From NCBI GenBank assembly GCA_016932435.1, contig JAFGCW010000089.1, forward strand, positions 77,235 through 141,234: 64,000 nucleotides of DNA. Direction: 5' to 3'. Numbering within the stretch: the first letter of the stretch is position 1; the number at the start of each line of letters is the position of its first letter. The DNA is from Dehalococcoidales bacterium (GTDB lineage: Bacteria > Chloroflexota > Dehalococcoidia > Dehalococcoidales > UBA2162). The translations under genes were made by a program, and so were the position numbers. Shown piece by piece: positions 45,232 through 63,207 of the stretch. The notes beneath the pieces are model-generated. The model was given only the letters and a program-made list of their open reading frames with translations, made no database searches and was not told where the DNA came from.

Positions 45232-46149
45232 TTACTTGACTTCAAGCATTCTGTCTACCGCGTTCTTGGCTTTTATCCTGATTTCTTCCGGGATTATAAT
45301 CCGGTTCTCCATATTCTCCAGCGACCATAATACGGTTTCGAGAGTAATCAGTTTCATCCGCGGACAGATAGCCTGTTCGGTTGCCGGAATAAACTCTTTA
45401 TTCGGATTTTCTTTGCGAAGGCGGTGCAGTAATCCCATCTCGGTACCCACGATGATCTCGGTAGCATCCGTTTCCCGTGCATAGCGTGCCATCTGGCCTG
45501 TACTGAGAATAGCATCGGCCAGAGCTCTCGTCTCAACCTTACACTCGGGATGAACGATTACTACCGCTTTCGGGTGTTCCTCTTTTCTTTTTAGTATATC
45601 GGCCGGAAGAATCCTGGCGTGAGTAGGGCAGTAACCCGGCCAGAGGATTAGTTCTTTTCCGGTTTGTTCGGCGGCGTAACTTCCCAGGTACTGATCCGGG
45701 ACGAAGATAATCTCTTCAGTGTCTTTTAATGTTTCAACTATCTTGACAGCATTGGCTGAAGTGCAGCAGATATCGGATTCGGCTTTCACTTCTGCGGTGG
45801 AATTTACATAGCAGACAACCTTTGCTTTCGGATGCTGCTTCTTGAGTTCTCTGAGTTGTTCGCCCGTAATCATATCTGCCATCGGACAGCCCGAATGTAG
45901 ATCGGGAAGCAGGACTATCCTATGCGGATTGAGGATGGCGGCAGTCTCTGCCATAAAATGGACTCCGCAGAACACTATCACCTCGGCATCGCTGGTCGCT
46001 GCTTTCCTGCTGAGTTCCAGTGAATCACCGGCGAAATCCGCTATGTCCTGTACTTCACCAAGCTGATAATTGTGAACAAGGAAAAGAGCGTTTTTGTCCT
46101 TTTTGAGAGTCATTATCTTTTCAATAATCGCTGTATTGCCGGTATCCAT
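45232..46149 (-). CDS. nadA: Quinolinate synthase
   Basis: 305 residues. It condenses iminoaspartate and dihydroxyacetone phosphate to quinolinate for NAD synthesis. The three cysteines of its 4Fe-4S cluster appear in VVCYVNS, GYCPTH and AICPRMK, and VFCGVHFMAETA and the HPEC motif are typical. The start ATG overlaps the fdhD stop by one base. nadB and nadC are not in the window. Confidence 0.95.
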   Translation of the reverse strand: MDTGNTAIIEKIMTLKKDKNALFLVHNYQLGEVQDIADFAGDSLELSRKAATSDAEVIVFCGVHFMAETAAILNPHRIVLLPDLHSGCPMADMITGEQLRELKKQHPKAKVVCYVNSTAEVKAESDICCTSANAVKIVETLKDTEEIIFVPDQYLGSYAAEQTGKELILWPGYCPTHARILPADILKRKEEHPKAVVIVHPECKVETRALADAILSTGQMARYARETDATEIIVGTEMGLLHRLRKENPNKEFIPATEQAICPRMKLITLETVLWSLENMENRIIIPEEIRIKAKNAVDRMLEVK

Positions 46150-46934
46150 TAGTCGGTTATCCTCCAGTCGTTTGTGTAAGCGTTTACCCTCTTCCCCCGG
46201 GCAAATCCAAGCAGGGTTATACCCATTTCGTTGGCAAGCCTGACTCCCAGGTTAGTTGGAGCCGACTTGGATATAATTATCGGGATATTCCTTCTTGAAA
46301 CCTTGAGCAGTATTTCAGAAGACACTCTCCCGCTGGTAACAACGATTCGATCTTCGGTGGAAATATCCTTCATCATGCATTCCCCGAATATCTTGTCGAT
46401 AGCATTGTGCCTGCCGATGTCCTCCATGAAAATGAGTATATTTTTTGCATCGCAGAGGGCAGCGCTATGGACACCGCCCGTCTCCCTGAAGACTTCCGAT
46501 TTCTGCTGAAATTCCTTCATCAAGGTTAGCACTTCTCCGGTGGATATTTTCGTATCGGATTTTATCTGCTCCCGGTTTTCAGCATCCGCAGCATGGTAGA
46601 ATGAAGCTCCTCTCCCACAACCGGAGGTTATCATTCTCTTGAACAGGAACTCATTATCAAAATCCTTTTCTTCTTTCGTGTTTACCCTGACGATACCATG
46701 ATTTTCATCAACCAGTACATTTTTTATCTCATCCCTGCTTTCAATCAAACCTTCTGAAAACAGAAATCCAACCGCCATGTAGTCAAGATTCTTTGGCGAG
46801 CATAACATCGTTACCAGCTCTTCGTTGTTCAGGATTATCGTAATCGGAAATTCCCTGACAACGATGTCTTCTATACTTTCTCTGCCTTCTTCCGTAAGTC
46901 GCAGGACACTGATTTTCTCAATCTCCGAGTCCAT
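46149..46934 (-). CDS. fdhD: Formate dehydrogenase accessory sulfurtransferase FdhD
   Basis: 261 residues. FdhD passes sulfur from IscS to the molybdenum/tungsten cofactor of formate dehydrogenase. FLFSEGLIES, FRETGGVHSAAL and MEDIGRHNAIDKIFG are family marks. The sulfur-carrying CxxC loop is reduced to one Cys: C106-G-R-G instead of CGxCG. A single Cys is enough in some relatives. Together with the Sec-containing selD this implies a formate dehydrogenase, often a selenoprotein, elsewhere in the genome. Confidence 0.93.
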   Translation of the reverse strand: MDSEIEKISVLRLTEEGRESIEDIVVREFPITIILNNEELVTMLCSPKNLDYMAVGFLFSEGLIESRDEIKNVLVDENHGIVRVNTKEEKDFDNEFLFKRMITSGCGRGASFYHAADAENREQIKSDTKISTGEVLTLMKEFQQKSEVFRETGGVHSAALCDAKNILIFMEDIGRHNAIDKIFGECMMKDISTEDRIVVTSGRVSSEILLKVSRRNIPIIISKSAPTNLGVRLANEMGITLLGFARGKRVNAYTNDWRITD

Positions 46935-47369
46935 TTATATGACCTTTATCGCATCTCCGCTCTTTACCGTCCCGCCGCGTACTACCCTGGTAAAAACGCC
47001 TTCTTCAGGCATTATACATTGACCGACGGCACGATAGATAGCGCACTTCGTGTGGCATTCCTTACCGATCTGGGTTATCTCAAGTCTGACTTCATTTCCT
47101 ATCGAAATCTCCGTGCCTACAGGAAGAGAAACCAGGTTTAATCCTTCCGTGGTAAGGTTTTCAGCGAAATCACCAGGGCCTACATTCAGTCCCAGTTCTC
47201 TCATTTTTTCGATACTCTCTTTTGCCATCAGACTTACCTGACGGTGGCTTTTTGAGTCAGCATGGGCGTCATCATCCATACCGTAGTCCTGAAGGAAGTA
47301 ACCTTCCTTTACATCATCTTTCCTGGTGCCCTTTTTCCTGCTTTTACACACCGCTAATATCCTGGCCAT
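46935..47369 (-). CDS. MOSC-domain protein
   Basis: 144 residues, a stand-alone MOSC domain. Marks: DAHADSKSHRQVSLM, GPGDFAENLTTEGLNLVSLPVGTEISIG, and the single conserved Cys in GKECHTKCAIYRAVGQCIMPEEGVF (pattern of KxCH). MOSC domains carry sulfur or oxyanions for molybdenum enzymes. It lies directly between fdhD and mnmA with no spacing to mnmA, which fits a shared sulfur-transfer task. Confidence 0.9.
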   Translation of the reverse strand: MARILAVCKSRKKGTRKDDVKEGYFLQDYGMDDDAHADSKSHRQVSLMAKESIEKMRELGLNVGPGDFAENLTTEGLNLVSLPVGTEISIGNEVRLEITQIGKECHTKCAIYRAVGQCIMPEEGVFTRVVRGGTVKSGDAIKVI

Positions 47370-48455
47370 TTATTCTCCATCACTCCTCTCTATTATTCCC
47401 CCTCCCAGAACAATGTCATCGTTATAGAATACCGCCGCCTGACCCGGCGTAATTGCCATCTGATTTTCCTTGAATTTCACTTTTATTCTTTCATTGTCAA
47501 CAGGTATTATGGTTGCTTCTGCTTCTTCGTGTGAATATCTTATTTTAGCCCTGACTTCCATCTTGGTTCTGGGTTTTTCTATGCTTATCCAGTTCAGGTT
47601 ATTAGCGGTAAGTTCGTCGCCATAGATATCTTCTCTGCTGCCCACTGTTATGTTATTATTCTTTGGATCAATATCGGTCACATATAAAGGATCATTACCG
47701 GATATTCCCAGCCCTTTTCGCTGTCCTATGGTAAAATTCGCGATCCCCCTGTGTTCACCAAGGATTTCTCCCTGTGTATTCTTGATTAAGCCGACCTGAG
47801 CATCGCTGATAAGCGACCTGTAACCGGCAGCGACGAAGTTCTGACTTTCCGGCTTTTCATCTATTCCGAGTCTGAATTTACGGGCCAGCTCTCTTACTTC
47901 CTGCTTGGTATATTCGCCGACCGGAAAGAGAGTATGACTGAGTTGGTTTTGTGAAAGGAATGCCAGAAAATATGACTGGTCCTTTGCTGTGTCCCTAGCT
48001 TTTTTTAACAGATAGCAGCCCGAGATTTCATTATAATCGATTCTGCTGTAATGACCTGTGGCGAAGTAATCGAACTCGATACCTGCATCTCCGGCTTTAT
48101 CTGTTAATGCCTGGAATTTTATACATCGATTACACATCAGGCAGGGATTCGGTGTTCTGCCTGACAGGTACTCGTCAGTGAAGTAATTCAGTACTTTTTC
48201 CCTGAATTTATTTGTTAAATCGATCACGTGAAAAGGGATCCCGAGAATGGCCGCTACCTTGCGCGCGTTTTCAATGTGTAGCGTTTCATCGGGACTATAG
48301 CAGGCATGACGTGTATGTAAACATGGCACTTCTTCGCCGTCCCATATCTTCATCATTATACCGGTAACACGGTATCCTTTACCTTTAAGAAGGGCGGCTG
48401 CAACCGAGGAGTCGACTCCTCCACTCATTGCTACTGCAATACGTTTACTGTTCAT
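47370..48455 (-). CDS. mnmA: tRNA 2-thiouridylase with unusual cysteine set
   Basis: 361 residues. It thiolates U34 of Lys, Glu and Gln tRNAs. The PP-loop SGGVDSS (11-17) and the family's TPNPC..CN..IKF region are clear. The latter reads C105-x2-C108-x2-C111, an extra pair compared with the single Cys of Escherichia coli MnmA. The second catalytic Cys, normally in SQEICFV, is missing: the sequence runs PESQNFVAAGY. This pattern suggests a cluster-bearing (4Fe-4S) form of thiolase rather than the persulfide disulfide form. The MOSC and fdhD genes are co-transcribed. Confidence 0.9.
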   Translation of the reverse strand: MNSKRIAVAMSGGVDSSVAAALLKGKGYRVTGIMMKIWDGEEVPCLHTRHACYSPDETLHIENARKVAAILGIPFHVIDLTNKFREKVLNYFTDEYLSGRTPNPCLMCNRCIKFQALTDKAGDAGIEFDYFATGHYSRIDYNEISGCYLLKKARDTAKDQSYFLAFLSQNQLSHTLFPVGEYTKQEVRELARKFRLGIDEKPESQNFVAAGYRSLISDAQVGLIKNTQGEILGEHRGIANFTIGQRKGLGISGNDPLYVTDIDPKNNNITVGSREDIYGDELTANNLNWISIEKPRTKMEVRAKIRYSHEEAEATIIPVDNERIKVKFKENQMAITPGQAAVFYNDDIVLGGGIIERSDGE

Positions 48456-48576: not shown

Positions 48577-49752
48577 TTAGGATTTCCTGACCATTCCATA
48601 TATGATTGCTACTATCGGCACCATTACTGATATTCCTGCCGCAGTAAAGAAAGTGGCATTGATACCGCCGTAAACATAGGCTATTCCTATAACCGGCGGT
48701 CCGAGTGTCTGACCAAGTCTCAGCATCATGTTGTTCAGTGACATAAAAGCCCCGCGGTATTCTATCGGAGCGAGTTCGGCTACAGATGTCTGTATGCTGG
48801 GCAGAGTAGCGCCATTGGCGATACCACTGAAAATTGCCGGTATCAAGAGCAGCCATAGGTTGGAGAAAACAGGAACGATGAGCATTGATATTGCATATAC
48901 TGTAAAGGATATCTTAATGATCGACGGAAGAGAAAATCGCCTGTTTATCTTGCCGAGTTGCGATGCTGTGGCCGCATTACTCAGGGAAGCCACTGACATG
49001 ATGATACCGATAGTGAGAGAAGATGCGTTGAATTTTTCCCCCATCAAGATAGTGAAATAAGTAAGATACGCTCCATAAAGGATGACGAACGAGAGCATGC
49101 CGGCAGAAAAGAGCCCGACTATTTTCATACTTTTCAGATGGTCCCATGCGCCGCTCAGGTATTCTTTTATAGACTCGTCACTGCGGGGCTCCGGATTTTT
49201 CAGCATCAGCAGAGCGAGTATCCCTATAGGCAGGGCTAACGCTGAAAGAAGAAAGGGATAATGCCAACCCAGAAGAGCCATCGCGCCGCCAATGGAAGGA
49301 TATAATGCTACCCCTATACTCAACACGCTGGCGTTCAGTCCCATGGCTTCAACTCTATGCTTGCCGTCGTACAGGTCGCCGATGATAGTGCTGTTTATAG
49401 ACCCGAGGGCTGCCGCACCGATTCCCTGGATTGCTCTCATCCATAGCAGAAGCTCAAAGTCCTTTACGAAGGTACAGGCAGTTCCGGCAATAGCGAACAG
49501 GAAAAGCGAAGGTATCAGTATCTTCTTTCTGCCATATCTGTCAGCCATAACTCCGACTACCGGGGTTAATAATGCCCCAGGCAAAGTGAAGAAGGTGATA
49601 AGCAGGCCGACCTGGTTCGGGGTAATGCCTAATTCACGCTGAATTTTTGGAAACGCAGGCGTAATGCTGGCGACACCGAGGACTGCCATCAGTGTTACTC
49701 CGAAAATTATAAGCAGGTTTGTATCTTTCCAGAGAATTTTCTTGGTTTCCAT
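48577..49752 (-). CDS. MFS transporter (drug:H+ antiporter type)
   Basis: 391 residues with 12 predicted transmembrane segments. The MFS signature GVMADRYGRKKILIPSL lies between helices 2 and 3 (about residues 66-82) and a central cytoplasmic loop follows near residue 190. Antiporter-like motif C (PSIGGAMALLGW) suggests efflux. Substrate unknown. It is separated from mnmA by 121 bases and from selD by a terminator. Confidence 0.9.
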   Translation of the reverse strand: METKKILWKDTNLLIIFGVTLMAVLGVASITPAFPKIQRELGITPNQVGLLITFFTLPGALLTPVVGVMADRYGRKKILIPSLFLFAIAGTACTFVKDFELLLWMRAIQGIGAAALGSINSTIIGDLYDGKHRVEAMGLNASVLSIGVALYPSIGGAMALLGWHYPFLLSALALPIGILALLMLKNPEPRSDESIKEYLSGAWDHLKSMKIVGLFSAGMLSFVILYGAYLTYFTILMGEKFNASSLTIGIIMSVASLSNAATASQLGKINRRFSLPSIIKISFTVYAISMLIVPVFSNLWLLLIPAIFSGIANGATLPSIQTSVAELAPIEYRGAFMSLNNMMLRLGQTLGPPVIGIAYVYGGINATFFTAAGISVMVPIVAIIYGMVRKS

Positions 49753-49836: not shown

Positions 49837-50889
49837 TTAGATTACTGTGATTTTACCGTTCGATTCACCGGTCACTTCTCCGATGAGTGTAGCGTCTTCC
49901 ACCCCGGCATTTTTCATCTTTTTCATTAGTTCGCCGGCTGTTCCTGCTTCTACTATGATTAACAGTCCGCCGGAAGTCTGGGGATCATAAAGAACGTCCT
50001 GTATATTCAGCGGTACCGAATCGGCAATCTCCACCCAGGGCGCGTAGAATTCACGGTTACGGTGAAGTCCGGCAGGGCACATTCCCTGGGATGCCAGGTC
50101 AGTCGCGTCAGGGAACAGGGGAACTGCTGAAGAATCGATTTCCATGCTTATTCCGCTGTTCTTGACAAGCTGGACGGCATGGCCGAGGAAACCGAATCCG
50201 GTGATATCGGTGCAGGCGTGCAGACCTCCTGATTGTTGAGCCAGTTCGGAGGCTGTATTGTTTAAAGCCGCCATGCTGGTGGTAACTATATTGATAGTCT
50301 CTTCATCTGCCATTTCGGCTTTGGCGGCAGTGTTGATGATTCCGGTTCCTAACGGCTTGGTCAGTATTACCTTGTCTCCTTTAATCCCGCCGGAATTGGT
50401 AATCATTTTATCGGGATGAACGACGCCGGTTACGGAAAGACCGTACTTGAGTTCGCTATCATCGATGCTGTGTCCGCCGACCAGCGTGACATTTGCCTCC
50501 CTCATCTTGTCGATACCGCCAAGAAGAATTTCCTTGAGAATCGACAGGTCCATAGTAGCGATGGGGAAGCAAACTATATTCATCGCTGTCAGCGGTTTAC
50601 CTCCCATCGTGTAGACATCGCTCAGCGCGTTGGCGACCGCGATCTGGCCGAACATATAGGGATCATCGACGATAGGTGTGAAGAAATCGATGGTCTGGAT
50701 TATAGCCAGATCATTTGTCAGCTTGTATACGCCGGCGTCATCGAGTGACTCCATGCCGCGGATGACATTCGGATCGGTCAGCAGCGGCAGGTCGCACAGT
50801 ACTTTATCCAGGTCGCCCGGACCTATCTTGGAAGCTCAGCCTGCTCCTTTGACACTCTCGGTCAACCTCGGATTTTTCTTCTCCGCCAT
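49837..50889 (-). CDS. selD: Selenide, water dikinase containing selenocysteine
   Basis: 350 residues with Sec. It makes selenophosphate from selenide and ATP, the selenium donor for Sec-tRNA. Read from the ATG at 50889 (GGAGG 5 bases before it) the frame gives MAEKKNPRLTESVKGAG-U-ASKIGPGDLD, with in-frame TGA at 50838-50836 as residue 18. This is the catalytic position that is Cys in Escherichia coli SelD (GAGCGCK). The rest is standard: DFFTPIVDDPYMFGQIAVANALSDVYTMGG, LVGGHSIDDSELKYG, and the C-terminal DPQTSGGLL. An automatic call that stops at UGA would lose the first 45 residues. SelD selenoproteins need SelA/B/C, which lie elsewhere. Confidence 0.96.
50808..50838 (-). promoter_or_regulatory. 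Bacterial SECIS element for the selD UGA
   Basis: Directly 3' of the UGA the mRNA can form a stem AGGTC/GACCT (50824-50820 with 50814-50810) with loop CGGGC. Two more pairs (CC/GG) below a bulge extend it. Its 11-base distance from the UGA and its small loop with G fit the SelB-binding bacterial SECIS. Confidence 0.75.
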
Positions 50890-51057
50890 CCATTCCTCCG
50901 TGAATATATAGGTCTCCTTGAGCGTATTGTATCACCGGGTAAAAATGAAAGCAAAAAACACGTATAAAGAATATTGCTGTGATCATTCATCGGAAGGTAT
51001 TTAGTGTCCTTGTTACCATTCGTTCCGTTGTGGTATTGTTTTCGAGAGGAACATGAA

Positions 51058-51489
51058 ATGAAGATTTTGTCTATTCGAGATAATCCCAGCTATACCGATG
51101 AAGCAATTACGTATTTTCAGAAACATTGGGCTAACGAAGCTACTATGATGGTTTATTATGATTGCATCTGCAATTGTCTTGATGCGAAAGCGCCTTTACC
51201 CCAATGGTATTTACTGGTAGACGATGAGAAAATCATTAGCTGCGCTGGTCTGATTACTAATGATTTTATTAGCAGGATGGATTTATATCCATGGGTTTGC
51301 GCACTCTTTATTGAAGAAGCATATAGAGGAAAGAATTACGGTTCTCTTCTACTGGAAAATGCAAAACAGGATACAGTAAATATGGGATTTGATAACCTCT
51401 ACCTTTCGACTGATCATATCGGCTATTATGAGAAATACGGATTTACATATATTGGTCAGGGCTATCACCCGTGGGGTGCAAATTCTTGA
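51058..51489 (+). CDS. GNAT-family N-acetyltransferase
   Basis: 143 residues from the ATG at 51058 (GAGAGGA before it); an in-frame upstream start would add 18 unlikely residues. The acetyl-CoA-binding motif A reads LFIEEAYRGKNYGSLLLENAKQ (R/Q-x2-G-x-G/A type), and the C-terminal DHIGYYEKYGFTYIGQGYH is the typical closing motif. It transfers an acetyl group to an unknown amine. Stands alone. Confidence 0.87.
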   Translation: MKILSIRDNPSYTDEAITYFQKHWANEATMMVYYDCICNCLDAKAPLPQWYLLVDDEKIISCAGLITNDFISRMDLYPWVCALFIEEAYRGKNYGSLLLENAKQDTVNMGFDNLYLSTDHIGYYEKYGFTYIGQGYHPWGANS

Positions 51490-59519: not shown

Positions 59520-59880
59520 GGAAGTTATTTTCTACTGGCGTGTAGAAGTATTACCGGGATTTTTCCAATTTCATATATCATAAGCGATTATATTTAATTA
59601 TAGTCTATTAAGTTCACTTAGACAAACTTTGTATATTGATAATATTGTAATTAACATCAAGGTGCGAATTCCTGATATTACGCCTAAGGATACATTAGTT
59701 TTGTTGATATATAAGGTATTTCGATACACGGTACTGTTGGTATTTATATAAAATTGGTGAAATCGATAAGAATATATGATAGAATCGTTTTTACTAAAGC
59801 CTTAGAAAGTCAACTGGAACGAATACTACTATCACCAGATTTATCAAGTAATGTAAAAATCTCTATTATTGGGAGTAGTC
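59520..59880. other. AT-rich divergent intergenic region
   Basis: Separates the reverse GH130 genes from the forward dehydratase genes. It is rich in A and T with many short direct and inverted pieces but no clear coding frame, RNA or -35/-10 pair on the plus strand. Confidence 0.45.
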
Positions 59881-61026
59881 ATGGAAGCTATACAAAACCT
59901 GCTACCTCATTTCAAAAACAGTCTTATTGATTTTCAAGAGATGAAAAACAAGGGGAGGAAAGTAATCGGTTATGTCCCGAACGGGTATATACCGGAAGAA
60001 TTGCTGCACGCCTGCGGACTAGTACCTTTAGCTCTATCACGGGGCGGGGACCCGGACCCGGTAGCAGCTTCTACTTCATACCTGGCGAGATTCCTCGACC
60101 CGTTTTGCAGAGCACAGATAGGCTATAGAGTCTTGAATGAAGAACCTCTCTACCAGATGCCGGATTTGCTCATCGTGCCGATTACGGATAACCATGTGAG
60201 GGCAATAGCCGACTCATGGGACTTCTACACCGATGTAGAGGTATACCGACTCGGTGTTCCCCATGTAAAAGCCGCACACGGGTTTGAGTATTACCTTGAA
60301 GGCTTGCGAGCGTTTAAAGAATATCTTGAACAATACACCGGCATAGAAATAACGGAATCAGCGCTCAAAGAGGAAATTCATATCGCTAATCAGATACGGA
60401 ATCTCCTCCTGGAGATAAGCTTGATGAGGAGAGCCGACCCGCCGCCTATCAGCGGTAAAGAGTTTATCGAGCTAAACCATAGCTCTTTTTACACCGACAG
60501 GCATCTAATGCTGGATAATTTGAAATCAGTTAAAAACCGCCTGCAGGTTTCCGAATCCTCCGGTACCGCGCAACCTCGCGTATTACTGGCAGGCTCCACG
60601 ATGGCGTTAGGAGATTTCAAAGTAGTGGACCTGCTGGAGGCAGAAGGAGCATCGGTGGTCATAGAAGAATTCTCAGAAGGGCTGAGAAACTACCGGCAAC
60701 AAACAACCGTCGGAGACGATATAATAAAATCCCTGGCTGACAGCTACTTTGCCAATAGAATTCCCGATGCCTTTTTCAGGGGAGCGGCAAAGGAGAGGAT
60801 TGGTTTCTTAACGAATCTTGTCAGCGATTATAAAGCAGATGCTGTTGTCTGGTATACGTTGATGTACCGCGAATCGTATGATGTCGAAGGGTACATACTG
60901 CAAAGGAACCTGGAGAAACAGGGTATCCCGATGTTGAGCCTTTCTTCTGATTATGATGACGCAGAGACAGGCAGCTTCAAGACACGAATCGAGACTTTCG
61001 TCAATATGATTCGAAAGGAGCATTAA
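59881..61026 (+). CDS. 2-hydroxyacyl-CoA dehydratase (HgdB/FldB-type) subunit 1
   Basis: 381 residues from the ATG at 59881 (GGGAG 5 bases before it); a TTG 12 bases upstream is less likely. It is one of two iron-sulfur subunits that remove water from 2-hydroxyacyl-CoA or reduce an aromatic acyl-CoA. Marks: VIGYVPNGYIPEELLHACGLVPLAL, with the first cluster Cys, DPFCRAQIGY, and AVVWYTLMYRESYDVEGYILQ near the end. The substrate cannot be read from sequence. The next two genes supply the second subunit and the activase. Confidence 0.87.
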   Translation: MEAIQNLLPHFKNSLIDFQEMKNKGRKVIGYVPNGYIPEELLHACGLVPLALSRGGDPDPVAASTSYLARFLDPFCRAQIGYRVLNEEPLYQMPDLLIVPITDNHVRAIADSWDFYTDVEVYRLGVPHVKAAHGFEYYLEGLRAFKEYLEQYTGIEITESALKEEIHIANQIRNLLLEISLMRRADPPPISGKEFIELNHSSFYTDRHLMLDNLKSVKNRLQVSESSGTAQPRVLLAGSTMALGDFKVVDLLEAEGASVVIEEFSEGLRNYRQQTTVGDDIIKSLADSYFANRIPDAFFRGAAKERIGFLTNLVSDYKADAVVWYTLMYRESYDVEGYILQRNLEKQGIPMLSLSSDYDDAETGSFKTRIETFVNMIRKEH

Positions 61027-61027
61027 T

Positions 61028-62422
61028 ATGGATTCCGAATTTTTTGATTTATTCGGCTTTGAGCCCGAAGATATCAAGAAGGAGTTACCAAGGATAGAGA
61101 AAGCGTTCGACATCGTAGGGATAAGAGATGAGGACACAGAGAGAGCTAAAGCGAAGATAAATAAATATTTCGACGTAGAACTGCTCGGTATGAGGAAGGT
61201 TATGGGGCTGTGGTTAAAAGAGATGGTCGATATGGTGCTGGCAAAAGAAGAAGGTAAAAAGGTAATTTACGTCAGCTATCCACCTATTCCTCAAATAGTA
61301 GCAGCACTGGCTTTGACCTCAGATGATGTTTACTGCGCCTCTCCGGATATCGTCTTGAGCAATACACTGAACCTGATGTTCGATATGATTAATCCTGTCC
61401 TGGAGACAGCGGAACAAAACGGGCTGGCACCCGGCACGGCATTTTGTTCATATTTACAGACACGCCTGGGGGCAATTGTAAAAGGGATAATTCCTAAACC
61501 GGACCTGCTTATCCCTTCCTGTTTTTTATGCGATTTAACACCGGCGTGTGATCAGCTTCTGGGCGAACTCTACGATATCCCGGTAGCATACATCGATAAC
61601 CTGATAGATGAGAAAGGCGAGGGATGGCCCCAGGAGATAAATCCCCGGAAGATAAAATACTTCTCCACACAGATGAGAGAGGCAATGGATATTTACTGCA
61701 AGGTTACCGGCCGCCAGCTGCCCGGGAGTGAAGTTACCGATGCCGTGAATTTTGCCGAAAGAACTTATGTATATGCTGGTGAAATACACCAGATGCGCAT
61801 GTCCGATCCTTTGCCTTTAGGCGAGAATGACTTTTTTCTCGCTCTCTCAATGGGCACCATGGCGAGAGGTATTAATGAAGGACCGGAGGCACTCAGCGCC
61901 CTTGTGGATGGATTAAGAAGCAGGGTTGCCGCCGGAAAAGGCGTGACAGAAAAAGGAGCACCGCGCGTGATGTTCTCAATGATACCTCACGATCCTTCTA
62001 TTTTAGCTACGATTAATGAATTAGGACTGGCGATAGGTCCTACCTCCGGAGGAGGAAGAAGGATGGAAAGACCTGAACATCCGCCGAATATGGAAATCTG
62101 GGAAGATATTGCTCTCTCACATATGCGGAGCAGAGGAGCCAATTACTCCAGCCTGGCTTATATAAATCAATTAAAAGAGTCGGTTAGAGACTCAAATGTA
62201 GAGGGCATAATACTCTGGCGTCACTACTCCTGCCGCCAGTACAGTATATTCCCCATCAAGGCGAAAGAGGTTATCGAAGAGGAACTCGGTGTCCCGGTGT
62301 TACTTTTAGAAGGAGACTATTGTGACTTTAGAAGTTACACTTCTCAGCAGATGAGAACCAGGCTGGAAACATTTGCCGAGATGGTCAAGAATAACAAATC
62401 AGCGAGAGAAAGGACAAAATAG
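61028..62422 (+). CDS. 2-hydroxyacyl-CoA dehydratase-type subunit 2
   Basis: 464 residues. Start ATG has AAGGAG 7 bases before it and overlaps nothing; it follows subunit 1 by one base. The cluster Cys motif region is PSCFLCDLTPACDQLLGELYDIP (about residues 163-185) and the C-terminus WRHYSCRQYSIFPIKAKEVIEEELGVPVLLLEGDYCDFRSY matches the D-component family closing motif (EGD..D). It is longer than the classic HgdA/B subunits (about 380-420). With subunit 1 it forms the dehydratase; it may bind the flavin or the second 4Fe-4S cluster. Confidence 0.85.
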   Translation: MDSEFFDLFGFEPEDIKKELPRIEKAFDIVGIRDEDTERAKAKINKYFDVELLGMRKVMGLWLKEMVDMVLAKEEGKKVIYVSYPPIPQIVAALALTSDDVYCASPDIVLSNTLNLMFDMINPVLETAEQNGLAPGTAFCSYLQTRLGAIVKGIIPKPDLLIPSCFLCDLTPACDQLLGELYDIPVAYIDNLIDEKGEGWPQEINPRKIKYFSTQMREAMDIYCKVTGRQLPGSEVTDAVNFAERTYVYAGEIHQMRMSDPLPLGENDFFLALSMGTMARGINEGPEALSALVDGLRSRVAAGKGVTEKGAPRVMFSMIPHDPSILATINELGLAIGPTSGGGRRMERPEHPPNMEIWEDIALSHMRSRGANYSSLAYINQLKESVRDSNVEGIILWRHYSCRQYSIFPIKAKEVIEEELGVPVLLLEGDYCDFRSYTSQQMRTRLETFAEMVKNNKSARERTK

Positions 62423-62424
62423 AA

Positions 62425-63207
62425 ATGCCAGTTGCAGGGATAGACATCGGCGCCGGTACGGCCAAGATTGTTATTCTCGAAGATAATAACATCATTACAA
62501 GTGCGGTAGTTCCGGTGGGCGGCAATGTCACTAAGGCACTCGAAGAAGTGACTGATATAGCATTAGATGGCACGGGATTATCCGTTGGTGAATTGGAGTA
62601 TGTAGTTTCTACCGGATACGGTCGTGATGCAGCCTCGTTCGCCAATTATTCGACAACTGAAATTATATGTCACGCCAGCGGGATCCATTTCTTAATGCCA
62701 CATATTAATACTATTATCGACATTGGTGCTCAGGACAGCAAGGTGATAAGGATCAATGGTGAAGGTAAAGTAGTAAACTTCGTAATGAATGATAAGTGCG
62801 CGGCGGGAACAGGCAGATTCCTCGAGGTTATGGCAAATGTCCTCGGCTTGGAACTCGGCGAGATGGGCCCTGCAGCGTTAACCAGTAATAATCCCTGTAC
62901 CATCAGCAGTACCTGTACGGTTTTTGCAGAAACTGAAGTGATATCACTCCGTGCCCGGGGAGAAGCGGTAGAAGACTTAATCGCCGGTATTCACAGGGCT
63001 ATGGCGAGTAGGATTCTGATAATGTCTTCAGGCATACGGCTCGATCAGGAAACTGCTTTTACCGGAGGAGTAGCTAAGAATATCGGAGTTCAAAAGGTAC
63101 TCGAGGAACTGGGCGACATTAAATGTATTATTCCGGTAGAGCCGCAGGAAACTGGAGCGTTAGGCGCTGCCCTGATCGCACAGACCAGATTGATGGAAAC
63201 CCGCTAG
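62425..63207 (+). CDS. Acyl-CoA dehydratase activase (HgdC/BadF type)
   Basis: 260 residues, the usual length. A homodimeric ATPase with one bridging 4Fe-4S cluster that injects an electron into the dehydratase at the cost of ATP. The ASKHA phosphate loops AGIDIGAGTAKIVI and IDIGAQDSKVI, the cluster cysteines in DKCAAGTGRFLEV and STCTVFAE, and the adenosine-site GGVAKNIGV are all present. It follows the second subunit by two bases, so the three genes form one unit. Confidence 0.95.
   Translation: MPVAGIDIGAGTAKIVILEDNNIITSAVVPVGGNVTKALEEVTDIALDGTGLSVGELEYVVSTGYGRDAASFANYSTTEIICHASGIHFLMPHINTIIDIGAQDSKVIRINGEGKVVNFVMNDKCAAGTGRFLEVMANVLGLELGEMGPAALTSNNPCTISSTCTVFAETEVISLRARGEAVEDLIAGIHRAMASRILIMSSGIRLDQETAFTGGVAKNIGVQKVLEELGDIKCIIPVEPQETGALGAALIAQTRLMETR

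Follow-up and report, generated by a model that had tools for sequence, protein, structure and literature searches.

The 64-kb stretch of DNA analyzed here (64,000 nucleotides from a Dehalococcoidales bacterium, hereafter the window) carries a selD gene with an in-frame TGA at codon 18, where aligned SelD proteins have Cys. The reading we favour, at a probability of about 96%, is that the gene encodes a functional SelD with selenocysteine (Sec) as the nucleophile at residue 18. According to the proposed mechanism, SelB and Sec-tRNA(Sec) would insert Sec18 at the UGA, with a small hairpin located 20 nt after it as the signal; Sec18 would then act as the catalytic nucleophile of an enzyme making selenophosphate from selenide and ATP, which would feed SelA for the production of Sec, to be used in SelD itself as well as in other selenoproteins. 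Among these, formate dehydrogenase would be the chief target, a role that fits the neighbouring fdhD gene. Sec insertion and the enzymatic activity of SelD are predictions from sequence. The elements of the gene, including a comparison with the closest relative, Dehalococcoidia bacterium W403, are the following.

50895..50899, minus strand: GGAGG, Shine-Dalgarno-like, 5 nt before the selD ATG; GGAGG also precedes the W403 start
49837..50889, minus strand: selD, selenide, water dikinase (selenophosphate synthetase), 350 residues, presumed Sec18
50836..50838, minus strand: in-frame TGA, codon 18, presumed selenocysteine codon at the catalytic position (Cys in the aligned 3u0o and 2yye)
50806..50822, minus strand: probable bSECIS-type hairpin, stem 50822-50816 / 50812-50806 (7 bp), loop CGA 50815-50813

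Reading frame and family of the selD product

The frame runs from the ATG at 50889-50887 to the TAA at 49839-49837 and contains only one in-frame TGA, which is codon 18 (50838-50836). The read-through product scores 379.3 bits against TIGR00476 (cut-off 125), with residues 8-315 aligned to profile positions 1-308, thus from the first position of the model, and 331.9 bits against NF002098 (cut-off 299). Scores above the curated cut-offs, together with the AIRS (PF00586) and AIRS_C (PF02769) domains, place it in the SelD family. It aligns with 3u0o over residues 6-346 (248 bits) and with 2yye over residues 9-329 (245 bits); the former is presumably the Escherichia coli SelD, and the latter, like 2zod and 2zau, that of Aquifex aeolicus. 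In both alignments residue 18 faces a Cys and K21 faces a Lys, and we take Cys or Sec at residue 18 and the conserved Lys at 21 to be the catalytic residues of SelD. Thus, the uninterrupted SelD frame from the ATG at 50889 through the TGA, described in an earlier sequence-only reading of this DNA, was confirmed, and so was its placing of the TGA at the catalytic Cys of other SelDs; the comparison of the 350-residue product with Cys- and Sec-type proteins, which it had proposed, gives Cys in 3u0o and 2yye and TGA in the best 80 of 510 loci described below.

The same reading had anticipated that ordinary annotation would miss the first 45 residues; indeed, ORF calling with table 11 returns only 49837..50754, a product of 305 aa starting at 50754. 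Nearly all of the closest protein records seem to share this defect: among the 120 best homologs of 7999 scored proteins, 116 start after residue 18 (55 of the 120 at the match of residue 22 and 26 at the match of residue 46), and the other four have Cys at the site. P0002, a shortened "selenide, water dikinase" from a Dehalococcoidales bacterium, is an example; such records belong to the same family and are up to 91% identical to the window SelD, but, unlike it, they begin past residue 18. The missing N-termini presumably result, in most cases, from UGA taken as a stop; a few shortened records may be contig-end fragments. Separately, three full-length Cys-type homologs (P0040, P0043 and P0064) carry DNAGV in place of the DDAGV of the window SelD, at what is presumably a metal/ATP-binding position, and are possibly a diverged SelD-like branch.

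The 305-residue ORF could also be the real protein, with the upstream frame as a remnant or a leader, and the 26 homologs starting at the match of residue 46 agree with such a product, which is also a frequent automatic call. However, the match to the SelD model begins within the upstream part, at profile position 1; this part also carries the catalytic residue, and its ATG is preceded by GGAGG; moreover, codons 1-17 differ from those of W403 by six synonymous and no replacement changes. A protein starting at 50754 is consequently very improbable, and the 350-residue SelD is retained. The shortened gene model is thereby corrected and the lineage is marked as a probable selenium user; where selenium use is inferred from shortened records, the enzyme is seen without its nucleophile.

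Conservation of the TGA and the downstream hairpin

A scan for encoding stretches, with one genome per species, found 510 loci, of which the best 80 were kept (L001-L080). The codon aligned to residue 18 is TGA in all 80; residue 18 lay outside the patterns used for the scan and was Cys in the query, so the choice of loci was not biased toward TGA. The closest relative among these best 80 of 510 loci is the W403 MAG (L001), with 82% nucleotide identity over 11.1 kb; it is a separate public assembly and has TGA at codon 18 like the window. Beyond the first 17 codons, the two genes differ by 2 synonymous and 1 replacement changes in codons 19-45, and by 86 synonymous and 29 replacement changes in codons 46-350. 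The part of the gene that bears the hairpin shows little synonymous change (Fisher p about 0.01), as expected of a coding stretch that may double as an RNA signal; stretches near the start are sometimes conserved for other reasons.

The in-frame UGA therefore stands where homologs have either Cys or UGA, as in UGA-encoded selenoproteins. A sequencing or assembly error, by which a real Cys codon had been misread as TGA, would agree with the Cys found in the four homologs covering the site and in the 8 of 150 listed SelDs of the class that have no internal stop, all with Cys there; it is contradicted by the TGA of W403 and of 80 out of the best 80 loci, and by the hairpin signal downstream, so that its probability is extremely low. 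More generally, either an error or a pseudogene is very unlikely in view of the alignments, since W403 keeps the TGA and has no replacement changes in codons 1-17.

A hairpin at the right distance after the TGA, another claim of the earlier reading, was found, although it is modest. Its loop lies 20 nt after the UGA and has G in second position; the hairpin alone has an energy of -8.0 kcal/mol. The limits given for bSECIS elements in PMC13188914 are a loop of 3-9 nt with G in one of its first two positions, an upper stem of 4-16 bp, a distance of 16-37 nt from the UGA and an energy of -7.5 kcal/mol or lower; the window hairpin falls within all of them, marginally as regards energy. When the window selD was recoded synonymously 2000 times, 2.5% of the versions fell within the same limits; for the W403 gene the figure is 7% of 100. 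With a strict test requiring an uninterrupted stem, 57 of the best 80 of 510 loci pass and 23 fail, versus 7.3 passes expected from synonymous recoding; of 2073 control codon positions elsewhere in these genes, 2.9% pass. The passes are 13/30 in L001-L030 (1.9 expected by recoding) and 44/50 in L031-L080 (5.3 expected); in the latter set 37/50 loci are Bacillales by title, so these passes are not independent. Conversely, the 57-nt fold of the region is as stable as its shuffles (z = -0.12), and the 45-nt minimum fold prefers a pairing other than the hairpin.

Pairing was evaluated on 31 sequences, namely the window and all of L001-L030, and this is the count relied on. In register, 87.1% of pair cells are standard, a value reached by 18/500 shuffles, and at most 54.8% are when the register is slid. 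Cells changed on both sides are 6 versus 1.8 in shuffled alignments (1/500 shuffles reach 6), and the covariation score is 0.200 (reached by 9/500); the pairs with two-sided change are 2, a number equalled by 217/500 shuffles. A first count took the window together with a hand-picked set of 26 of the 80 loci (L001-L030, leaving out L011, L024, L025, L029 and L030 and adding L048); it had given 91.0% paired cells and a covariation score reached by 1/500 shuffles, thus looking better than the full set. Over the 31 sequences, covariation gives the hairpin moderate support, and a bSECIS-type hairpin after the selD UGA is probable.

Elsewhere in the window, UGA behaves as an ordinary stop codon. 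Among 51 genes chosen from the ORF list, TAA ends 24, TAG 17 and TGA 10, indicating that UGA is not generally reassigned. A search for frames continuing through a TGA (at least 150 codons in all and at least 15 on each side) gave 36 candidates, of which only selD is convincing by eye; the others were rejected, again by eye, as antisense or chance frames, or as short tails past ordinary stops. A genome-wide reassignment of UGA, for instance to Trp or Gly, by which position 18 would not be Sec, found no supporting point; it is opposed by these stop codon and read-through data and by the presence of tRNA-Sec(tca), selA and selB in W403, and its probability is practically nil. The initial proposal that UGA is read as Sec is instead supported by the conservation of the TGA, by purifying selection on the codons before it, by the statistics of the hairpin, and by the presence in W403 of the Sec machinery and of a TGA-containing formate dehydrogenase.

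Selenium machinery and gene neighbourhood

No tRNA-Sec was found in the 64-kb window, and the SelA and SelB of W403 gave no match to it better than E = 0.4; thus, the Sec machinery is not seen beside selD. Six genomes of relatives were searched: W403 and those of L005, L007, L009, L028 and L026. All six have selA and selB above cut-off (569 and 337 bits, respectively, in W403), and all six a SelD above cut-off with one internal TGA; in W403 there is one SelD above cut-off. Since the tRNA-Sec model responds to other tRNAs as well, giving a signal in 14/14 control genomes and a score above cut-off in 5, ARAGORN was run on the best match in each genome. It identified a tRNA-SeC with anticodon tca in 4/6 genomes (W403 and those of L005, L007 and L028), and in the remaining two it read the best match as a tRNA-Ser or a tRNA-Trp. 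From these relatives we infer that selA, selB and selC are present in the window's own genome.

Formate dehydrogenase alpha subunits with one in-frame TGA were found above cut-off in 4/6 of these genomes. The one frame read, an FdhA-family frame in W403 (895 bits, one in-frame TGA), has the TGA in the context VDHCARL*HSPTVAG, which we take to be the known Sec position of formate dehydrogenase. In the window itself, selD is followed by these genes:

48577..49752, minus strand: MFS transporter, downstream of selD (PF07690); same place in W403
47370..48455, minus strand: mnmA, tRNA 2-thiouridylase (NF001138, 400 bits, cut-off 284); near selD in L001 and L005 too
46935..47369, minus strand: MOSC-domain protein (PF03473; partial match to NF011069, below cut-off)
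46149..46934, minus strand: fdhD, formate dehydrogenase accessory sulfurtransferase (TIGR00129, 227 bits, cut-off 141)
45232..46149, minus strand: nadA, quinolinate synthase (NF006878, 434 bits, cut-off 294)

The order selD, MFS, mnmA, MOSC, fdhD, nadA is the same in W403. The fdhD gene, which had been placed about 3 kb from selD, lies 2.9 kb from the selD stop. Twenty window proteins were scanned against NCBIfam, and ten of those also against Pfam. Upstream of selD, on the opposite strand, lies a GNAT acetyltransferase gene (51004-51489) that is missing from the W403 locus, being outside both aligned blocks. The three genes of a cluster at 59869-63207 encode an anaerobic reductase of the double-cubane-cluster type (212 bits against NF040772, less than the cut-off of 350), a second protein and, as judged by eye, an ATP-dependent-activator-like protein. 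A comparison of the query with a plasmid collection gave 15 records, covering at most 17% of it, and was uninformative.

Selenophosphate can also have other destinations. The mnmA product makes the 2-thiouridine substrate for selenouridine, and the position of mnmA near selD would agree with a SelD serving mainly MnmH-dependent tRNA selenouridine; similarly, YqeB, a marker of the Se-cofactor hydroxylase trait, is above cut-off in the genome of L005 (1/6) and partial, below cut-off, in that of L028. In either case Sec would be used only for SelD itself. However, MnmH is above cut-off in none of the six genomes and has no match whatever in W403, where YqeB is also unmatched and FdhA contains a TGA; a SelD devoted to these other uses is thus improbable. 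The MnmH result is in line with PMC1794560 and PMC5322559, according to which Chloroflexi lack this selenouridine modification trait. Considering the Sec machinery and FdhA of the relatives, the lack of any MnmH above cut-off and the rarity of YqeB, Sec incorporation is likely the use of selenophosphate here.

Comparison with known selenocysteine-containing SelD proteins

In a survey of 294 genomes drawn from the class of W403, SelD was above cut-off in 208 and SelA in 196. Among the 150 SelD rows listed, counted by eye, 142 have an in-frame TGA anywhere in the frame (one of them also a TAA) and 8 have none; the codon at residue 18 is TGA in 32/32 of the listed rows read there. Sec-type SelD is common in the class, and the window selD adds a host lineage to a known arrangement.

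Some genomes of the class have more than one copy. Two of them, G271 (L161, L162) and G099 (L163, L164), have a Cys-type SelD together with a TGA-containing one, and the Cys copy could bootstrap the Sec copy, if it is not a contamination of the draft genome; G013 has two different copies (L171, L172), both with TGA at residue 18. Of 12 class SelDs examined, 9 have an extra Cys at the third position ahead of the catalytic residue (SCAG* or SCAGC), three of them with TGA (L162, L164, L171) and six with Cys (L165-L170); the CxxU/CxxC-like motif thus formed is absent from the window SelD. As a tentative and rather doubtful generalization, SelD in the class could be a selenoprotein by default, needing its own product, with few genomes holding both TGA and Cys copies. 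If so, the window lineage would be a fully self-dependent case, considering the one SelD above cut-off in W403, and the two-copy genomes G099 and G271 would offer a natural experiment on the bootstrapping of Sec-type SelD.

In the literature, Sec-type SelD is a long-known and widespread selenoprotein family, and SelD and FdhA are described as the most widespread bacterial selenoproteins (PMC1794560). Sec-type formate dehydrogenases have been reported in Chloroflexi (PMC4959059, PMC5736913), and one Dehalococcoidales single-cell genome is described as having no sign of Sec use (PMC4959059). A search of titles and abstract beginnings in the open-licence literature found no paper on Sec-type SelD in Dehalococcoidia, a result that does not in itself show absence. 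With respect to the known Sec-containing SelDs, that of the window belongs to the same family, has the UGA at the same position and is endowed with a probable bSECIS-type hairpin after it; it differs only in its host lineage, within Dehalococcoidia near W403, and in the neighbourhood selD-MFS-mnmA-MOSC-fdhD-nadA.
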